Source of the DNA: Gottschalkia acidurici 9a
GTDB lineage: Bacteria > Bacillota > Clostridia > Tissierellales > Gottschalkiaceae
Length of the DNA: 64,000 nt
Direction of reading: 5' to 3'
Assembly (NCBI RefSeq): GCF_000299355.1
Contig: NC_018664.1
Span: forward strand, 2,340,380 to 2,404,379
The notes below the pieces were generated by a model. The model was not told where the DNA came from, made no database searches, and saw only the letters and a list, made by a program, of their open reading frames with translations. Both the position numbers and the translations under genes were made by a program. Positions 1-8,142 of the stretch are shown piece by piece (position 1 is the stretch's first letter; each line of letters begins with the position of its first letter).

Positions 1-366
1 TGAATAAAGTGATTCATATTCTGTTTTGATTTCTTCTAATGATTTATATTCCAAATATTCTTTAGAATATACGTGTTCATTGCTCATTATCATGTAATTA
101 TAATTACTTATATCAATAGCATCTATACTTTTGAGCCAATCTAGTTTCTCTTTTGATATATCCCTCACCTCCTCTACCAGTTGTAGATTTGTATTGATAG
201 TTGATTCAATCTTTTTATTCATTTCTTCTACTTCTTTTAAAAATTCTTTATAAATCTTTTCTTCTTTTTTAATAAACTTATTTATTTCAGAAATTATATA
301 TATTTTTACTACTGCAATAGAACATATGATACTTGACATCATAGTTATCAAATCTATATTCTTCAT
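1..366 (-). CDS. Partial gene: small membrane-anchored coiled-coil protein, 3' end off the left edge
   Basis: An open frame of 122 codons runs from ATG at 366 to the window edge without a stop, so the gene continues to the left. A strong ribosome binding site (AGGGGG) lies 7 bases upstream of the ATG. Residues about 4-24 are hydrophobic and look like one N-terminal membrane anchor. The rest is Lys/Glu-rich and helical, probably coiled coil. I do not recognise the family. It lies inside the putative mobile element, where small anchored proteins of this kind are common. Function unknown. Confidence 0.6.
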   Translation of the reverse strand, partial: MKNIDLITMMSSIICSIAVVKIYIISEINKFIKKEEKIYKEFLKEVEEMNKKIESTINTNLQLVEEVRDISKEKLDWLKSIDAIDISNYNYMIMSNEHVYSKEYLEYKSLEEIKTEYESLYS

Positions 367-468
367 TCAATACCCCCTATTCAGTTTTCATTATTTGTCA
401 TATCACTCTTTCATCTTGTTGACAGAAGTATTTCTTAAATAGCCCTCTTAATAAAAAGTAACTATATC

Positions 469-651
469 TTAAGCTGACTCTTTTTCTCTGTCTCTTTGCT
501 TTATTTCCTCCATTTTCCTATATACATAACCTTGATTAAAGCCTTCTAGATGTGTAAGAATTAGTTGTTGTTTCTGAATACTTGATTGTTTTATAATCCT
601 TACTATTTCATCTAGTACTGGTTTTTCTTCATTTTTTATTAAAATATCCAT
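469..651 (-). CDS. Hypothetical 60-residue charged protein
   Basis: Sixty codons from ATG 651, with GAGGAG about 9 bases upstream. The product is soluble, helical and highly charged (Glu/Lys/Gln-rich, ending in a basic-acidic tail), with no motif I recognise. It is transcribed divergently from the XRE regulator at 806, so the region between them may hold a shared control site. In skin-like elements the recombination directionality factor is a small orphan protein of this size, so this is one candidate for that role. That is speculation from size and location only. Confidence 0.5.
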   Translation of the reverse strand: MDILIKNEEKPVLDEIVRIIKQSSIQKQQLILTHLEGFNQGYVYRKMEEIKQRDREKESA

Positions 652-721
652 GTCTTTTCACACTCCTCTCACTATAAACTTCCCCTGTTGGTTGCTGCTT
701 TTTCTTGTATATAGATATTGC

Positions 722-782
722 ATTCCCTCTTGTAGAATATATTAACCTTTTTATTTACAAACGGGAATTGTTATGCTAATAT
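722..782 (+). promoter_or_regulatory. Promoter and inverted-repeat operator of the XRE regulator
   Basis: A near-consensus sigma-A promoter is visible: TTTACA at 754-759, a 17-base spacer, and TAATAT at 777-782. An inverted repeat flanks and enters it: ATTCCCTCTTGTA at 722-734 and TTACAAACGGGAAT at 755-768 (half-site ATTCCCnnTTGTA). The right half overlaps the -35 and spacer, as expected for an autorepressor site between divergent genes. Binding by the 806 product is inferred. Confidence 0.6.
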
Positions 783-805
783 ATTTCCATAAGGAGGTAA
801 TTGCA

Positions 806-1273
806 TTGAAAGAAAGATTGTTAATGTTAAGAAAGGATTTGAAACTTAACCAACATGATTTTGGCTCAAGAATCGAAATGAGCAAAGCAAGTATTTCAGC
901 TTTAGAAAAAGGCTTAAGAGATATAACTGATAGAACAGTAAAGCTTATATGTACTGAATTTAGTATAAATGAAGATTGGCTTAGATATGGTAAAGGAGAA
1001 ATGTTCATTCAAGCTGATACCTTTTCACTTGATGACTATGCTAAACAAAATAATCTATCTGATTTGGAGTTAGATATTGTTAAAGCTTATATAAATCTTA
1101 ATAGTGATATTCGTAAAGATATCATAACATCTTTAAAGGCCGTGTTTGATAATCATTCAGAAATAGCTGTTATTAAGGATGAAGAAAGCGATATTAATAA
1201 AGAGCTTGAAGCTTATAGGCTTGAGTTAGAAGCTGAACAAAGAGGAAGAAGGAAAAATGAAAATTTAACTTAA
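806..1273 (+). CDS. XRE-family (phage repressor-like) transcriptional regulator
   Basis: The 155-residue protein has an N-terminal Cro/C1-type helix-turn-helix (about residues 5-60, including the SKASISALEKG recognition-helix region). Its C-terminal half is acidic, helical and unrecognised, and presumably mediates oligomerisation. I place the start at TTG 806: AAGGAGG sits 8 bases upstream, and the promoter -10 at 777-782 means the in-frame codon at 773 would not be transcribed. Such proteins act as lysogeny or element repressors. Its place next to divergent small genes within a recombinase-bearing element suggests control of that element, probably with autoregulation. Confidence 0.85.
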   Translation: MKERLLMLRKDLKLNQHDFGSRIEMSKASISALEKGLRDITDRTVKLICTEFSINEDWLRYGKGEMFIQADTFSLDDYAKQNNLSDLELDIVKAYINLNSDIRKDIITSLKAVFDNHSEIAVIKDEESDINKELEAYRLELEAEQRGRRKNENLT

Positions 1274-1461
1274 ATAAAAATATATTTAATATTTTTGACT
1301 TTTAGCAGTATTTAAAAGGTTTGAAATTTAATATACATACTTCAATTTGGATATTCATTGTAAACATTTCTTAGTCTAAGATAAGAGTTATGATGAGTAT
1401 TTAGTACATGTAGAAATTATTGAGAAACATTTTAAACATAATTGAAGGGAGATTTGCGGTA

Positions 1462-1817
1462 ATGGATAAAATTAGGCACTTCACTGATAGATCTAAACTG
1501 AGCAATCGTTCAATAATTATGTCAATATCAATTGTTATTTGTTTTTTACTAATGTAATAGCAGCCTTCTTATCTGGTGACTGGGTGTCTGAAAATATATT
1601 GTTCATCTTATTTTCTTTCGTTACTATCTTTATCACTTTAGTGATAAATTTGCTTGGGACTATTTTGGGAATAATAGACATAATAAAATCTGAACAAAAG
1701 ATAATATCTGGAATAGGAGCTACCTTAAATATTTTATCATTAATTACTATTATTATTTCATTTAAGAATTTAAATTATCTAAATGCAGTATTTTGGGCTC
1801 TAGATATACTTAAATAA
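1462..1817 (+). pseudogene. Small multi-span membrane protein, frameshifted at a T-run
   Basis: A good ribosome binding site (GAAGGGAG) precedes ATG 1462, but that frame stops at 1557. The following frame continues as a hydrophobic protein to 1817. Adding one T to the six-T run at 1542-1547 joins them into a single protein of about 118 residues with a charged N-terminus and three hydrophobic segments. The downstream frame alone would need a TTG start without a ribosome binding site. Either the gene is broken or the run was miscalled. The family is not recognised; its gene context is the mobile element. Confidence 0.5.
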
Positions 1818-1900
1818 TAATATTTAGAAAAGTAGTTGAACTATTAAAATCTAAAGAAAGTTTATAATTTTAATAGTTATTATAAAAGATCAATATTCAT

Positions 1901-2074
1901 ATGAATAAGTACTTAAAGTGGATTCTAGATCACTTAAAGTTTTTTCTTATTTTCTTAGGATTAAATTTTTTATCGCAGAAGTTGTGGAACTGTTTTGAAG
2001 GAGATTCTCTCTTGCAAAATGCGATTGGAGTAACGATGTTCATTATGTTGTTTAAAAATTTCAGTAAAAAATAA
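1901..2074 (+). CDS. Possible 57-residue hydrophobic peptide
   Basis: A 57-codon frame from ATG 1901 encodes a peptide with one long hydrophobic stretch near the N-terminus, a second near the C-terminus, and a lysine-rich end. There is no convincing Shine-Dalgarno sequence upstream. It is followed directly by a perfect terminator hairpin at 2110-2151, which supports a transcript ending here. Not recognised. It could be a short membrane peptide or simply the AT-rich tail of the preceding transcript. Confidence 0.3.
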   Translation: MNKYLKWILDHLKFFLIFLGLNFLSQKLWNCFEGDSLLQNAIGVTMFIMLFKNFSKK

Positions 2075-2109
2075 GACAAATAAGTTTTACTAACTCGTGA
2101 TCTTATTTA

Positions 2110-2157
2110 AAAAGAGTCAACATATTGTATATACAATATGTTGACTCTTTTGTTTTT
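2110..2157. terminator. Perfect-palindrome bidirectional terminator
   Basis: A 21-base-pair perfect inverted repeat (2110-2130 with 2131-2151) is flanked by A-runs on the left and T-runs on the right, so it could end transcription from both sides. It separates the small genes from the distal end of the CRISPR array and would stop the minus-strand crRNA precursor. Confidence 0.85.
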
Positions 2158-2194
2158 TAATAATTTCGTAAAATTAGGTATTGATAAGAAAGTA

Positions 2195-3255
2195 TATTAT
2201 ATTCTAATATAGTTCTATTAATACAAAGAAATGGAGATAAGAACACCTTTCACAGCCGAATTTACATTCTATTGTAGTTCTATTAATGCTGGTACAATGA
2301 CTATAAATTAATAAGTTTTTAAAAACTTTACATTCTAATGTAGTTCTATTAATACACAAAGTATTATAGTAAATACAGGACTACTTACAGTCTTTACACT
2401 CTATTTTAGTTCTATTAATACTTATGTGTTAAAAACTTTATTCCAGTATCATCAACATTTACATTCTATTCTAGTTCCATTAATACTTTGATATAAAAAT
2501 TATACCACAAGTGAAAATAGAAAGCTTATAATCTACTATAACTCTACAAGTAAAACAAATGATTATTAAATTTCTAATATAGTTCTATTAATACACAGTA
2601 TGTAACTAAAAAAATAACGATTACGCTACAAAATTTACATTCTACTCTAGTTCTATTAATACAAGAGTACACTTCTTAGATCATTATTGACACATTTACA
2701 TTCTACTCTAGTTCTATTAATACTCTTGCGACTGGAAATCCACTTATCAAGGAGAAAAATTTACATTCTACTCTAGTTCTATTAATACTATTGATACTAC
2801 TTTTTCTTTTACCTTAAATGCTAATTTACATTCTACTCTAGTTCTATTAATACAATATCGAATCTAAATCCATTTCTCACGTCTACATTGATTTACATTC
2901 TACTCTAGTTCTATTAATACAATTACAGTTTGTACAAGTTTTGATATTTTTAATTATAATTTACATTCTACTCTAGTTCTATTAATACACGTCTAGACGT
3001 CTATGTTATATAATTATAAATAAGGATTTACATTCTACTCTAGTTCTATTAATACAAGAAAAGAAATTTTACGAACACTTGATTCTTGTAAGGATTTACA
3101 TTCTACTCTAGTTCTATTAATACAGAGACTGGGGTTCTAATGCTAAGAAAAGAATGGATATTTACATTCTACTCTAGTTCTATTAATACAGTTGTTCAGC
3201 TTAGAGCTGAAGGTCTGTGGCTTTAATTTACATTCTACTCTAGTTCTATTAATAC
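2195..3255 (-). CRISPR. CRISPR array, 17 repeats of 30 bp, type I-B-like repeat, no cas genes nearby
   Basis: Thirty-base repeats end, on the plus strand, at 2224, 2289, 2355, 2421, 2486, 2553 (very decayed), 2594, 2662, 2723, 2788, 2853, 2920, 2988, 3055, 3123, 3189 and 3255. Spacers are 31-38 bases, except for an 11-base remnant at 2554-2564. The ten right-hand repeats (2633 onward) are identical and the seven left-hand ones vary. Read on the minus strand the repeat begins GTATTAATAG and ends GAATGTAAAT, the 3' ATGTAAAT end being typical of clostridial type I-B repeats. Conserved repeats at the right and decay at the left place the leader at the right, and a promoter there agrees. No cas gene is present, so processing must rely on Cas proteins encoded elsewhere. 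Confidence 0.97.
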
Positions 3256-3555
3256 CCGTTATTCTGTGTATATCGATTTTTCTTTACTATAAATATGTTT
3301 TCTGTCTACCTATTCACTTTTTGTCGAAATATTATGTATTAATTAATTATATTTTATATAAAATCAATTTCAAGTGTGATTACATCTAAGTTTGTCTAAC
3401 CTCAGTATTTTTTACACTACTACAGGTTGACATATATTTCTTCTTAAATAATATCTTATCCCCAGTATAACATATTATTTACAATAGATAAATAATAATA
3501 AAAGTATGATGTAATAAGGTAAATAAACAATTTATATCTTGAAAGGAGCTTTGAT
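3256..3555 (-). promoter_or_regulatory. CRISPR leader with sigma-A-like promoter
   Basis: This AT-rich 300-base gap holds no credible gene. On the minus strand TTGAAA (3368-3373), a 16-base spacer and TATAAT (3346-3351) form a near-perfect promoter aimed into the array. It gives roughly an 85-base leader transcript before the first repeat at 3255. The adjacent repeats are the identical, recently acquired ones, as expected at the leader side. The recombinase ribosome binding site (AAAGGAG) lies at the far right of the gap. Confidence 0.7.
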
Positions 3556-5106
3556 ATGCAATATTGTATATATCTCCGTAAATCTAGATCTGATGAGGAA
3601 GCTGAACAGCGAGGAGAAGGTGAAACTCTTGCTAGGCATGAGAAGATATTATTAGATCTAGCTAGAAAACTAAAATTAAATATAACTAAAATATATAAGG
3701 AAGTTGTAAGTGGTGAAACTATATCTTCTAGACCTATCATGCAGCAGTTATTAAGTGAAGTAGAAGAAAAGTTATGGAGTGGTGTGTTAGTTGTAGAAGT
3801 TGAACGTCTAGCCCGTGGGGATACTATAGATCAAGGGACAGTATCACAGGCTTTTAAATATTCTAATACTAAAATAATAACTCCTGTCAAAACTTATGAT
3901 CCAAATAATGAATTTGATGAAGAATATTTTGAGTTTGGCCTTTTTATGTCTAGAAGAGAATATAAGACCATAAATAGACGTTTGCAGCGTGGAAGACTAG
4001 AAAGTGTAAAGGAAGGTAAATACGTTGGTAATACTCCCCCATACGGATATGTCAGAAAAAAACTAGAAAAAGAAAAAGGCTATACACTAGAGCCGCATCC
4101 TGAACAGTCGGATATAGTAAAACTTATATACAAATTATACACAGAAGAAAATATAGGAGTATCTTTAATTGTAAGAAGATTAGAAGAATTAAAAATACCA
4201 ACAGCAAAAGGTGGATATTGGTCAACTTCTACTCTAAGAGGAATCTTAAATAACCCTGTCTATATTGGCAAAATAAGATGGAAACATAGACCTCAGGTTA
4301 AGAAAGTTAAAGATGGTGAAATTATAAAAGAAAGACCTCGTTCTAATGATGTAGTAATTGTAGACGGTTTACATGAAGCAATAATAGATGAAGAAACTTT
4401 TAATAAGGCACAAGAAATACTGTCTGAAAATTCATCAGTTCCCGTTCCTACAAAATATACTATTAAAAATTCTCTAGCTGGAATAGTCAAGTGTGGTAAG
4501 TGCGGTAGAAATATGAATAGACGACCGTATGGAGAAAGGCAGCCTGCTACTTTAATGTGTCCTGTTCCTCAATGCTCTAATGTTAGTTCTCAACTACATT
4601 TAGTTGAACAAAAGTTATTAGAGTCTTTAGAAAAGTGGCTAGATAAATATAAACTAAAAATAAACTCTAATACAGATAACAATAATTTAAGCTTAGAGTT
4701 AGATGTAGTTAAAAAATCAATTCAAACTATAAATGAAGAGCTAGAAACACTTAACACACAGTCTGATAAACTTCATGACCTACTTGAGCAAGGCATATAC
4801 TCAACAGAGAAATTTCTTGAACGTTCTAAGATCATATCTGAGAAAATATCCAAACTGAAAGATAATAAAAGTAATTTAGAGAAAGAATTAAATCAAAATA
4901 GATTAAAAGAAGAAAGTGACAGAACCATAATTCCTAAGATTGAAAGAATATTAAAGACATATAACACACTTGAAACACCAGATCAGAAAAATGAATTACT
5001 TAAGGAAGTTTTAACTGAAGTTGAATATAATAAAGAAGTGGGTGGAAGATGGCATGCTAAGCCAGATGACTTCAAGTTAGTTGTCCATCCTAAAATACCT
5101 AAATAG
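3556..5106 (+). CDS. Large serine recombinase (integrase/excisionase of the element)
   Basis: The 516-residue protein has the large serine recombinase architecture. The N-terminal resolvase catalytic domain (about 1-145) has the YLRKSR motif with nucleophile Ser10 and the conserved ERLARGD arginines around 84-87. The recombinase domain is about 160-290. A zinc ribbon uses Cys313, Cys316, Cys335 and Cys340. A long coiled coil (about 375-470) controls directionality in this family. The start is ATG 3556 with AAAGGAG upstream. The stop is only 26 bp from the cotJC fragment, the usual place for an integrase beside its attachment site. It would integrate the element and, with a directionality factor, excise it. 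Confidence 0.95.
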   Translation: MQYCIYLRKSRSDEEAEQRGEGETLARHEKILLDLARKLKLNITKIYKEVVSGETISSRPIMQQLLSEVEEKLWSGVLVVEVERLARGDTIDQGTVSQAFKYSNTKIITPVKTYDPNNEFDEEYFEFGLFMSRREYKTINRRLQRGRLESVKEGKYVGNTPPYGYVRKKLEKEKGYTLEPHPEQSDIVKLIYKLYTEENIGVSLIVRRLEELKIPTAKGGYWSTSTLRGILNNPVYIGKIRWKHRPQVKKVKDGEIIKERPRSNDVVIVDGLHEAIIDEETFNKAQEILSENSSVPVPTKYTIKNSLAGIVKCGKCGRNMNRRPYGERQPATLMCPVPQCSNVSSQLHLVEQKLLESLEKWLDKYKLKINSNTDNNNLSLELDVVKKSIQTINEELETLNTQSDKLHDLLEQGIYSTEKFLERSKIISEKISKLKDNKSNLEKELNQNRLKEESDRTIIPKIERILKTYNTLETPDQKNELLKEVLTEVEYNKEVGGRWHAKPDDFKLVVHPKIPK

Positions 5107-5150
5107 TTATACGATAACATCTATGTACCTAAGAATTAGCTCACTGGGAA
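5107..5150. other. cotJC: Element/chromosome junction inside cotJC (candidate attR)
   Basis: Reading upstream from the cotJC fragment, homology to the family holds back to codon 5133 (Glu-Leu-Ala-His-Trp-Glu-Met-Ile), then a TAA at 5130-5132 ends it. Serine recombinases use a short shared core, which should lie around 5128-5150. The matching attL and the cotJC 5' part lie outside this window, so the exact crossover cannot be seen. Confidence 0.7.
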
Positions 5151-5513
5151 ATGATAGGTACTATAGTTTGGAAGCTGATAAAGGATGCTCCTATCAGTAA
5201 AATAAAGGGAACACCTTTCGAAGCTTATTATGTAAGCCATGGTAAAGCATTATATCCCGCAAATGCCGGTGGACATCCTTGGACTGCATCATTTATACAG
5301 TCTAAAGACGATCCTATAGCTTCTTTACATGAAGATATGGCTGCTGAGCAAAAAGCTAGAGCAACTTACGAGTATTTAATAAGAGTAAGTGATGATCCTG
5401 GCGTTAAGGATACTTTAAGATTTTTAAGAGAAAGAGAGGTTGTTCACTTCCAACGTTTTGGAGAGGCACTCTGTATAGTTCAAGAAGCATTAGATAGCAA
5501 GAAATATCATTAA
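5133..5513 (+). pseudogene. cotJC: cotJC 3' fragment (spore coat protein CotJC, manganese-catalase family), interrupted by the element
   Basis: About 126 codons match the C-terminal two-thirds of CotJC. They include the half-motif ELAHWE, the AAEQKARATYEY helix and the REREVVHFQRF helix, which supply glutamate and histidine metal ligands in this ferritin-like family. The first 60-65 residues, with the first ligand glutamate, are absent. The break lies inside the EExAHxE motif. ATG 5151 has no ribosome binding site, so independent translation is unlikely. Full-length CotJC is about 190 residues. Excision of the element could restore the gene in the sporulating mother cell, as for sigK/skin; this is inference. 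Confidence 0.85.
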
Positions 5514-5990: not shown

Positions 5991-6761
5991 ATGGGTCTAA
6001 CTAGTCAATCATCTGGATTTAGCCTACTTAAAGAAAAGTTTAGTATTGAAAAAAAGTCTAAAGATGAAATAATAATAGCTCTTGCAGGAAATCCGAATAC
6101 AGGAAAAAGTACCTTATTTAATAGTTTAACTGGACTTAGACAGCATACGGGTAACTGGCCAGGTAAAACTGTCACTAATGCAAAAGGAAGTTTTAAATAT
6201 AAAGATAAAGACTTCTTACTAATTGATTTACCAGGAACTTATTCTATATTAGCGAATTCTGCTGAAGAAGAAGTAGCTAGAGACTTTATATGCTTTGGTC
6301 ATCCTGACTTAACTGTAGTTATAACTGATTCCACTTGTCTTGAAAGAAACTTGAATTTAGCTCTACAAGTTATGGAGATAACTGATAATGTAATTGTATG
6401 CCTAAACTTAATGGATGAGGCAAAGCGAAAGGGAATTTCTATAGATATAAAGAAACTAGAGCAACTTTTAGGAGTTCCTGTAATACCTATTATAGCAAGA
6501 GATGGAAAAGGTATAGACGACTTACTAGAGGTAATATACAAAGTTGTTCAGAAAGAAATAGTACCATCTCCATATAAAATTAAATATTCTGAACATATTG
6601 AAAACTATGTTTCTAAAGTACAGAAACGTTTGTCAGATAGCTTATATGACAAATTAAATAAACGCTGGATTTCTCTTAGATTATTAGATGGTGATAAAGA
6701 GATTCTGAATAATATTGATTCGATCCTAACTTCTAGAATGAGTGGTGATATAGATGAGTAG
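5991..6761 (+). CDS. feoB: FeoB N-terminal half: GTPase domain as a separate protein
   Basis: The 256 residues cover the FeoB G domain: G1 GNPNTGKST (33-41), the switch-I threonine in WPGKT (Thr60), G3 DLPG (79-82) and G4 NLMD (139-142), followed by the start of the helical GDI region. In most bacteria this is fused to the Fe2+ permease. Here it ends at TAG 6761, and the membrane half starts at ATG 6754 in another frame, overlapping by 8 bases (ATGAGTAG), which suggests translational coupling. No homopolymer lies at the junction and the upstream frame has a stop immediately before the second ATG, so the split looks genuine. Confidence 0.9.
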   Translation: MGLTSQSSGFSLLKEKFSIEKKSKDEIIIALAGNPNTGKSTLFNSLTGLRQHTGNWPGKTVTNAKGSFKYKDKDFLLIDLPGTYSILANSAEEEVARDFICFGHPDLTVVITDSTCLERNLNLALQVMEITDNVIVCLNLMDEAKRKGISIDIKKLEQLLGVPVIPIIARDGKGIDDLLEVIYKVVQKEIVPSPYKIKYSEHIENYVSKVQKRLSDSLYDKLNKRWISLRLLDGDKEILNNIDSILTSRMSGDIDE

Positions 6762-8142
6762 TGTTTTTAAAAATAATATAGATAAACTTATGTGTTTAGT
6801 AGAGGAGCAAGAATCTAAAAGCCTTGGGGATGATATTGTTACCACAATATATCAAAACGCAGAACGTATAGCAAGTAGTGTAACTACAGTAAAAGACAAC
6901 AGAAAAATCAAGTGGGATGAAAAGTTAGATAACATACTAACTTCTAGATTAACAGGTTTCCCCATAATGATTTTGTTATTAGCAGGTGTATTTTGGGTTA
7001 CAATAGTCGGATCTAACTATCCTTCTGAGCTTTTGTCAAACATGTTTTTTAAACTTGAAGATAAAATAACTTTATTATTTAATTATTTTAATTCCCCTGA
7101 ATGGTTACATGGTATTTTAGTATTAGGTATGTTTAGAGGATTAGGATGGGTTGTCTCAGTAATGCTTCCTCCTATGGCTATATTTTTTCCCATATTCACC
7201 TTACTAGAAGACTTTGGTTATCTTCCTAGAATAGCCTTTAATCTTGATAATATGTTCAGAAAATCAGGAACTCATGGAAAGCAAGCACTAACAATGAGCA
7301 TGGGATTTGGATGTAATGCTGCGGGAGTTATTGCATCTCGTATAATAGATTCTCCTCGTGAAAGACTTATAGCTATAATTACTAATAATTTTGTTCCTTG
7401 TAATGGAAGATTTCCAATACTTATAGCTATGTCTATGATATTTATTGGAACATTTTCTAATAAGTATTCTACTGTACTTGCGTCACTATCTGTTGTTCTC
7501 TTAGTTCTTATTGGTGTATATATTACTCTTTTAGTATCTAAACTATTATCTAAAACTGTTTTAAAAGGTGTGCCATCTTCTTTCACATTAGAACTACCGC
7601 CATATAGAAAACCGCAGTTAGGTCGCATTTTAGTAAGATCTTTGCTTGATAGAACCCTGTTTGTCCTATGGAGAGCTGTTATAGTTGCTGCACCAGCAGG
7701 AGCTATAACTTGGTTAATTGCAAATACTTCTATTGGAGATATAAGCTTGTTAAACTATATTGCAAATATTTTAGATCCTTTTGGAAAATTACTAGGATTA
7801 GATGGTTTTATACTTATGGCTTTTATTTTAGGTATTCCTGCCAATGAGATAGTCTTACCTATCTTGATAATGAGTTATATGTCTAAAGGTTCTATGTTAG
7901 AGTTTGACACACTGGATTCTCTTAAAAATTTACTTTTAAATAATGGATGGACTATAATAACAGGAATAAACTTCATGTTATTTAGTTTACTTCATTTTCC
8001 TTGTGCTACAACACTTTTAACTATAAAGAAAGAAACTAATAGTACTAAATGGACTATATTTACACTTTTAATAACCACCTTATCTGCCATCGTTGTAACA
8101 TTTCTAGTTAGTATGCTAGGTAAGCTATTTGGAATATCATAG
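6754..8142 (+). CDS. feoB: FeoB C-terminal half: Fe2+ permease membrane domain
   Basis: The 462 residues carry the FeoB membrane region after a 60-70 residue helical linker ending in the LTSRLTGFPI segment that precedes the first span. Two Gate-type domains are visible, with the signature cysteines in GFGCNAAG and FVPCNGRF, and a further conserved cysteine in the HFPCATT segment of the last spans. About 8-9 transmembrane helices are likely. Together with the preceding GTPase protein it would form the cytoplasmic-membrane ferrous iron importer. The start overlaps the upstream stop. Confidence 0.9.
   Translation: MSSVFKNNIDKLMCLVEEQESKSLGDDIVTTIYQNAERIASSVTTVKDNRKIKWDEKLDNILTSRLTGFPIMILLLAGVFWVTIVGSNYPSELLSNMFFKLEDKITLLFNYFNSPEWLHGILVLGMFRGLGWVVSVMLPPMAIFFPIFTLLEDFGYLPRIAFNLDNMFRKSGTHGKQALTMSMGFGCNAAGVIASRIIDSPRERLIAIITNNFVPCNGRFPILIAMSMIFIGTFSNKYSTVLASLSVVLLVLIGVYITLLVSKLLSKTVLKGVPSSFTLELPPYRKPQLGRILVRSLLDRTLFVLWRAVIVAAPAGAITWLIANTSIGDISLLNYIANILDPFGKLLGLDGFILMAFILGIPANEIVLPILIMSYMSKGSMLEFDTLDSLKNLLLNNGWTIITGINFMLFSLLHFPCATTLLTIKKETNSTKWTIFTLLITTLSAIVVTFLVSMLGKLFGIS

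Follow-up and report, generated by a model that had tools for sequence, protein, structure and literature searches.

The window, by which we mean the whole stretch analysed (64,000 nucleotides, G000:C2:2340380-2404379, in a 3.1-Mb genome of two contigs), opens inside an insert that splits the spore coat gene cotJC. We consider it very likely, given the sequence of its ends and its relatives, that this insert is a skin-like element, a decayed prophage with a serine recombinase lying at the codons GTE|ELAH, and that it is excised in the mother cell. It is also probable, though we hold this with less assurance, that the insert is one of at least four elements in this genome with one mother-cell promoter before their excision factors, and that cotJC is a class-wide hot spot cut into three, possibly four, pieces.

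An earlier note on this DNA had described a recombinase ending at 5106, followed by a cotJC frame from 5133 that lacked its first 60-65 codons and broke inside the EExAH metal motif. All of this is borne out. The recombinase ORF spans window 3556-5106 (+), and the 3′ part of cotJC (residues 65-190 of a manganese-catalase-family spore coat protein; window 5131-5513, +) runs from 5131/5133 to 5513 without codons 1-64, the EELAHxE motif being interrupted at GTE|ELAHWE. It aligns with CotJC of Anaerosalibacter and others, starting at the codons ELAHWE. Used as query against this genome, the 70 N-terminal residues of a relative's CotJC located the 5′ part (codons 1-64), which the note had sought to the left, at G000:C2:2327325-2327528 (+), on the same strand and 18.0 kb left of the 3′ part, with intact cotJA and cotJB directly preceding it. 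Its place behind cotJA/cotJB and its family mark the interrupted gene as a mother-cell sporulation target, the mother-cell expression of cotJC being taken from other species (PMC3789822).

Both ends of the insert share the six bases AAGAAT, found at G000:C2:2327515 and at window 5131-5136 (genome 2345510), within the range 5128-5150 where a shared core had been predicted. Joined at this core, the two halves give an open frame of 190 codons in which the EELAHWE metal motif is restored and the junction reads ...NDIGTEELAHWEMIG.... As the halves are complementary (1-64 and 65-190), occupy the same strand and are in frame when joined at AAGAAT, the arrangement is not due to chance, and precise excision would restore the cotJC reading frame as it does in skin-type elements. 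Each half is the sole match in the 3.1-Mb genome, and with both halves as queries no second or intact cotJC was found elsewhere in it; the intact copy that the note had set against its own reading is thus absent.

The element is 17,995 bp long and begins at G000:C2:2327515, 12.9 kb left of the window, which holds its right-hand 5.1 kb (window 1-5130). Its attachment sites read GGTACAG-AAGAAT-AGGTACATAGACGTTATC (attL) and GATAACATCTATGTACCT-AAGAAT-TAGCTCACTGGGAA (attR). The ends are inverted repeats, the right arm GATAACATCTATGTACCT (window 5113-5130) pairing with AGGTACATAGACGTTATC at attL, and 18 of the 20 positions agree in the palindrome formed at the circular junction. In common with skin-type elements, it encodes a site-specific recombinase, a large serine recombinase of 516 amino acids with Pfam Resolvase, Recombinase and partial zinc ribbon domains, the predicted integrase/excisionase. 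Also carried are a phage-type repressor-like HTH regulator (window 773-1273, +; Pfam HTH_3, PHROG transcriptional regulators), two holins, an amidase, a phage metallopeptidase, RecU, lipoprotein-like proteins, and phage gene remnants in the form of DnaD-like, Erf-like and tape-measure fragments, while a 231-aa protein with an ADP-ribosyltransferase domain (PF03496; G000:C2:2327628-2328323, −; L082:5629-6324) lies beside attL. The element ORFs scanned include no capsid, portal or terminase gene, which sets the element apart from a complete prophage. The element is phage-derived but incomplete, a decayed prophage. It further contains a CRISPR array with 16 repeats of about 30 bp (window 2195-3255). 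The chromosome has a larger array with this repeat at 704.8-707.0 kb, so the element array may rely on host Cas proteins; its spacers had no convincing target among the loci examined. Excision restricted to the mother cell would deprive that cell of this array.

Across the order, recombinases of at least 53% identity to that of the element occur in nine of 249 genomes, its own included, and all nine adjoin half a cotJC. An even sampling of the class (391 genomes) gave 15 recombinases (L217-L231) at about 50% identity or higher; 13 of these adjoin part of cotJC, whose break falls at about residues 61-68. Recombinases at 41-46% identity adjoin sigK in nine loci, NCBIfam confirming the neighbour as SigK for two. 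A tree places the sigK recombinases and three of other context in one group (support 100/100), whose nearest neighbour is one cotJC recombinase (96/92); 15 cotJC rows, the recombinase of the window among them, group at 81/97, resolution being confined to these shallower groups. The best NCBIfam match of the recombinase is XisF, below threshold. The integrase of Paenibacillus phage phiIBB_Pl23 is 58% identical, and the sequence behind it contains 13 bases (GGTACAGAAGAGT) of the cotJC attachment sites; 14 bases of these sites occur in a human-gut phage scaffold. Control windows gave a 99th percentile of 11 and a maximum of 14. Partial cotJC matches were seen in six human-gut phage scaffolds (MT837874, MT838203, MT839280, MT839049, MT839831 and MT835881). 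There the partial gene ends near residues 59-72 or starts at 132, a pattern that would be expected of prophages integrated in cotJC.

Judging from the split genes of the genomes surveyed, cotJC appears to be a hot spot of interruption throughout the class, cut repeatedly and into up to three verified pieces per gene. Within the order it is found in separated parts in 14 of the 85 genomes with a cotJC-type match, and rejoined parts give a full-length or near full-length CotJC in about 18 other genomes. The interruptions lie near codons 29, 52-53, 63 and 134, about four sites in all, and the elements range from 3.6 kb (G016) and 4.7 kb (G252) up to 39-157 kb between parts in single-contig genomes. 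Three pieces could be rejoined to 194-200 amino acids in G613, G410, G433 and G005. In Anaeromonas frigoriresistens (G172, the genome of L009) a middle piece of about 12 codons lies between two elements, and the three-piece join restores MPTDQAKGILTDIGTEELAHWE, its C-terminal end lying outside the stretch used. Because of the codon-52 site, the automatic joins were imperfect for G003, G172, G037 and G038. For G003 the stretches examined, where the contig ends, contained no middle piece, and the parts of G014 did not join cleanly. In G418 the join left out the fourth piece and G422 joined poorly, so "four pieces" is a count of search hits only. A 22-base core in G009 was set aside, as the contig ends there and the core may be an assembly overlap.

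A small ORF of 56 aa (G000:C2:2339985-2340155, −) lies in the element immediately to the left of the window. It belongs to a family of about 51-83 aa with an LGNTTV motif that recurs in cotJC elements and beside the recombinases of other genomes' sigK elements. Upstream of it, at fixed spacing, lies the motif ATAGKACA-N12-CATA. Eight distinct sites of this motif occur in the 1.67 Mb examined, all before the small ORF of an intervening element, in a set biased to elements and with a motif defined on element sequences including this one; 14 large loci gave five matches, against 0.145 on average for scrambled patterns. The whole genome, which makes the cleaner test, has six sites, compared with one for the pattern read backwards. 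Two of the six are inside coding sequence. The other four lie between genes, a short way ahead of an ORF of 55-71 aa in each case, and belong to the cotJC element, the sigK skin element, an element in a subtilase gene and an element in an FAD-oxidoreductase gene.

The skin element (11.6 kb; G000:C2:1449988-1461546, L253) carries a CotF-like coat protein ORF, assigned by eye. The split sigK was found independently by a SigK profile, and joining at GTATTGATAAT yields a 241-aa SigK; with SigE- and SigG-type genes also present, the host has the sporulation sigma factors. The element in the subtilase (S8) gene is 4,416 bp long with the core TCTGCTATACA (G000:C2:2990569-2994985, L292). It separates the part with the catalytic Ser from the rest of a gene of 444 aa when joined, and carries serine-recombinase-like and MatE-like transporter ORFs. 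The element in the FAD-oxidoreductase (GIDA-family) gene, 10,999 bp with the core ATACTG (G000:C2:1507590-1518589, L290 and L291), interrupts a gene of 426 aa when joined, carries a serine-recombinase-like ORF and is near a ytfJ-type sporulation gene and dacB/dacF-like genes. Since these last two elements were found by the motif, this short signature works for finding further ones. Of the four small proteins three are acidic but one has a pI of 9.6 and is thus basic, which counts against the reading preferred here.

We infer that the motif is a sigma-E/SpoIIID-like promoter. The bases TAGGACAAAT in it presumably fit the SpoIIID consensus of B. subtilis, and sigma-E is the natural candidate because sigma-K cannot exist before the skin is excised. 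The spacing ATA-N17-CATA is close to ATA-N16-CATATATA, the sigma-E promoter of C. difficile spoIIID (PMC3789822). A simple sigma-E spacing pattern was not enriched before 111 cotJA genes. In C. difficile, the cotJ homologues cotCB and cotD appear among the sigma-K targets (PMC3789822, PMC11222575).

A likely course of events can be proposed. The recombinase very probably integrated the prophage at the GTE|ELAH codons of cotJC, a step supported by the sites and by the choice of target in its family. During sporulation, sigma-E with SpoIIID would turn on the 56-aa gene, to judge from the motif, and the family context makes its product a candidate recombination directionality factor. Together, the recombinase and the 56-aa protein would excise the element in the mother cell and so rebuild cotJC, whereas the forespore would keep the element and pass it on. 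With this motif also standing before a similar small ORF in each of the other three elements, all four would be excised together. A point against this course is that the assembly shows the integrated state only. If so, this would be a sporulation genome-editing regulon in which several genes are spliced at the DNA level in one step, and a cotJC carried in three, possibly four, pieces would need at least two excisions per protein. The skin-like reading put forward in the earlier note gains support from relatives with the same site, the sigK clade of recombinases, selection on the split genes and the motif common to the genome's own skin.

It is improbable that the insert is an ordinary prophage remnant, for which cotJC was an attachment site and whose decay left the coat gene dead and dispensable. 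Such a history would agree with the loss or truncation of most phage genes and with related integrases in free phages, and CotJC proteins may be redundant in some spore formers; this genome, however, has no second cotJC, both halves stay open and conserved, and the split genes of sister species evolve like intact ones. In the closest split pairs dN/dS is about 0.02-0.1 (dN 0.004 and dS 0.20 for G037/G038, 0.024 and 0.44 for G299/G326, 0.042 and 0.72 for G252/G250, 0.072 and 0.89 for G253/G250), like the median of 0.077 for intact pairs with dS below 1.3. Purifying selection is thereby shown to act on split cotJC genes. The recombinases are constrained too (dN/dS about 0.09-0.16), and even the smallest elements (4.4-4.7 kb) keep the recombinase, the small ORF, the motif and the cores, which a mere remnant would not lead one to expect. 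In G299/G326 an alignment of 3.2 kb at 93% adjoins the recombinase, consistent with both genomes having inherited the insertion from one ancestor.

A phage-type switch, thrown at random or under stress and leaving a mixed growing population, would require no developmental control of excision. The yin element in yabG is excised at all culture time points (PMC10747680), and the cotJC element keeps a phage repressor. We nevertheless rate this as very unlikely, because the sigK skin of this genome, whose excision sigma-K requires, has the motif before its small ORF as well, and because the motif is near the published sigma-E promoter spacing (PMC3789822). That two unrelated regions were wrongly joined in assembly is hardly credible: in several of the other examples the assembly is indeed fragmented and places the two halves on separate contigs, but here the whole element lies within one 3.1-Mb contig, and the same layout is seen in single-contig genomes of other genera, e.g. 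G253, G260, G449 and G410.

The skin-like element preferred here shares with the sigK skin of B. subtilis and that of C. difficile (skinCd, with CD1231 and CD1234) the form of a decayed prophage in a mother-cell gene with a serine recombinase, a direct-repeat core and in-frame restoration, and it coexists with a skin in the same genome. It differs in its target and in a recombinase of a separate group, it is known here from sequence alone, and its small protein is of a different sequence family from that of its own genome's skin. Cyanobacterial heterocyst elements (in nifD, fdxN and hupL) likewise occur several at a time, in genes needed only in a terminal cell; they resemble the case of cotJC in this multiplicity and in the XisF-type match, whereas the development, hosts and genes differ. 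Paenibacillus larvae phage phiIBB_Pl23, with its similar integrase and cotJC attachment bases, is a complete phage, unlike the cotJC element. The element vrin we take to have spoVR as its target. C. difficile CD1234 is a 72-aa directionality factor under sigma-E and SpoIIID (PMC5025042). SPbeta in spsM likewise pairs a large serine recombinase (SprA) with a small factor, the 58-aa SprB, which has its own mother-cell promoter with a transcription start 20 nt upstream (PMC4191935), but it is an active phage, whereas the cotJC element has about 18 kb and no structural genes among the ORFs scanned. The elements gin (gerE), vfbin (spoVFB), vrin and yin (yabG) also interrupt sporulation genes (PMC5595907, PMC4191935, PMC10747680); these are other genes with one element each, whereas cotJC is in three pieces in several genomes.

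The kind of element is therefore already known, with reports for sigK, spoVFB, spoVR, spsM, gerE and yabG (PMC4191935, PMC5595907, PMC10747680). What is new is cotJC as a target, the number of pieces and the control signature common to four elements. In the open-access papers searched, a coverage outside which most subscription papers and preprints lie, no cotJC interruption was described. C. difficile phi027 adjoins a cotJC homologue, and as that gene is described as lying outside attR we do not count it as an interruption. Intervening elements were previously known one gene at a time; one genome here carries four with a seemingly single control signal. This makes it testable whether such inserts are tolerated parasites or timers, keeping a gene from functioning before the mother cell is committed. 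Automatic annotation would label such split genes broken.

Related recombinases of other genomes (L233, L235 and L226) adjoin, as judged by eye, a SpoIIID-like region and fragments of a GH18 YaaH/SleL-like and an asparagine-synthetase-like gene, a hint that more sporulation genes are targeted. Downstream of cotJC, feoB is present as two overlapping ORFs of 256 and 462 aa (window 5991-8142). Its counterpart in Anaerosalibacter is a single 708-aa gene, and the feoB of the window is either naturally split or frameshifted.
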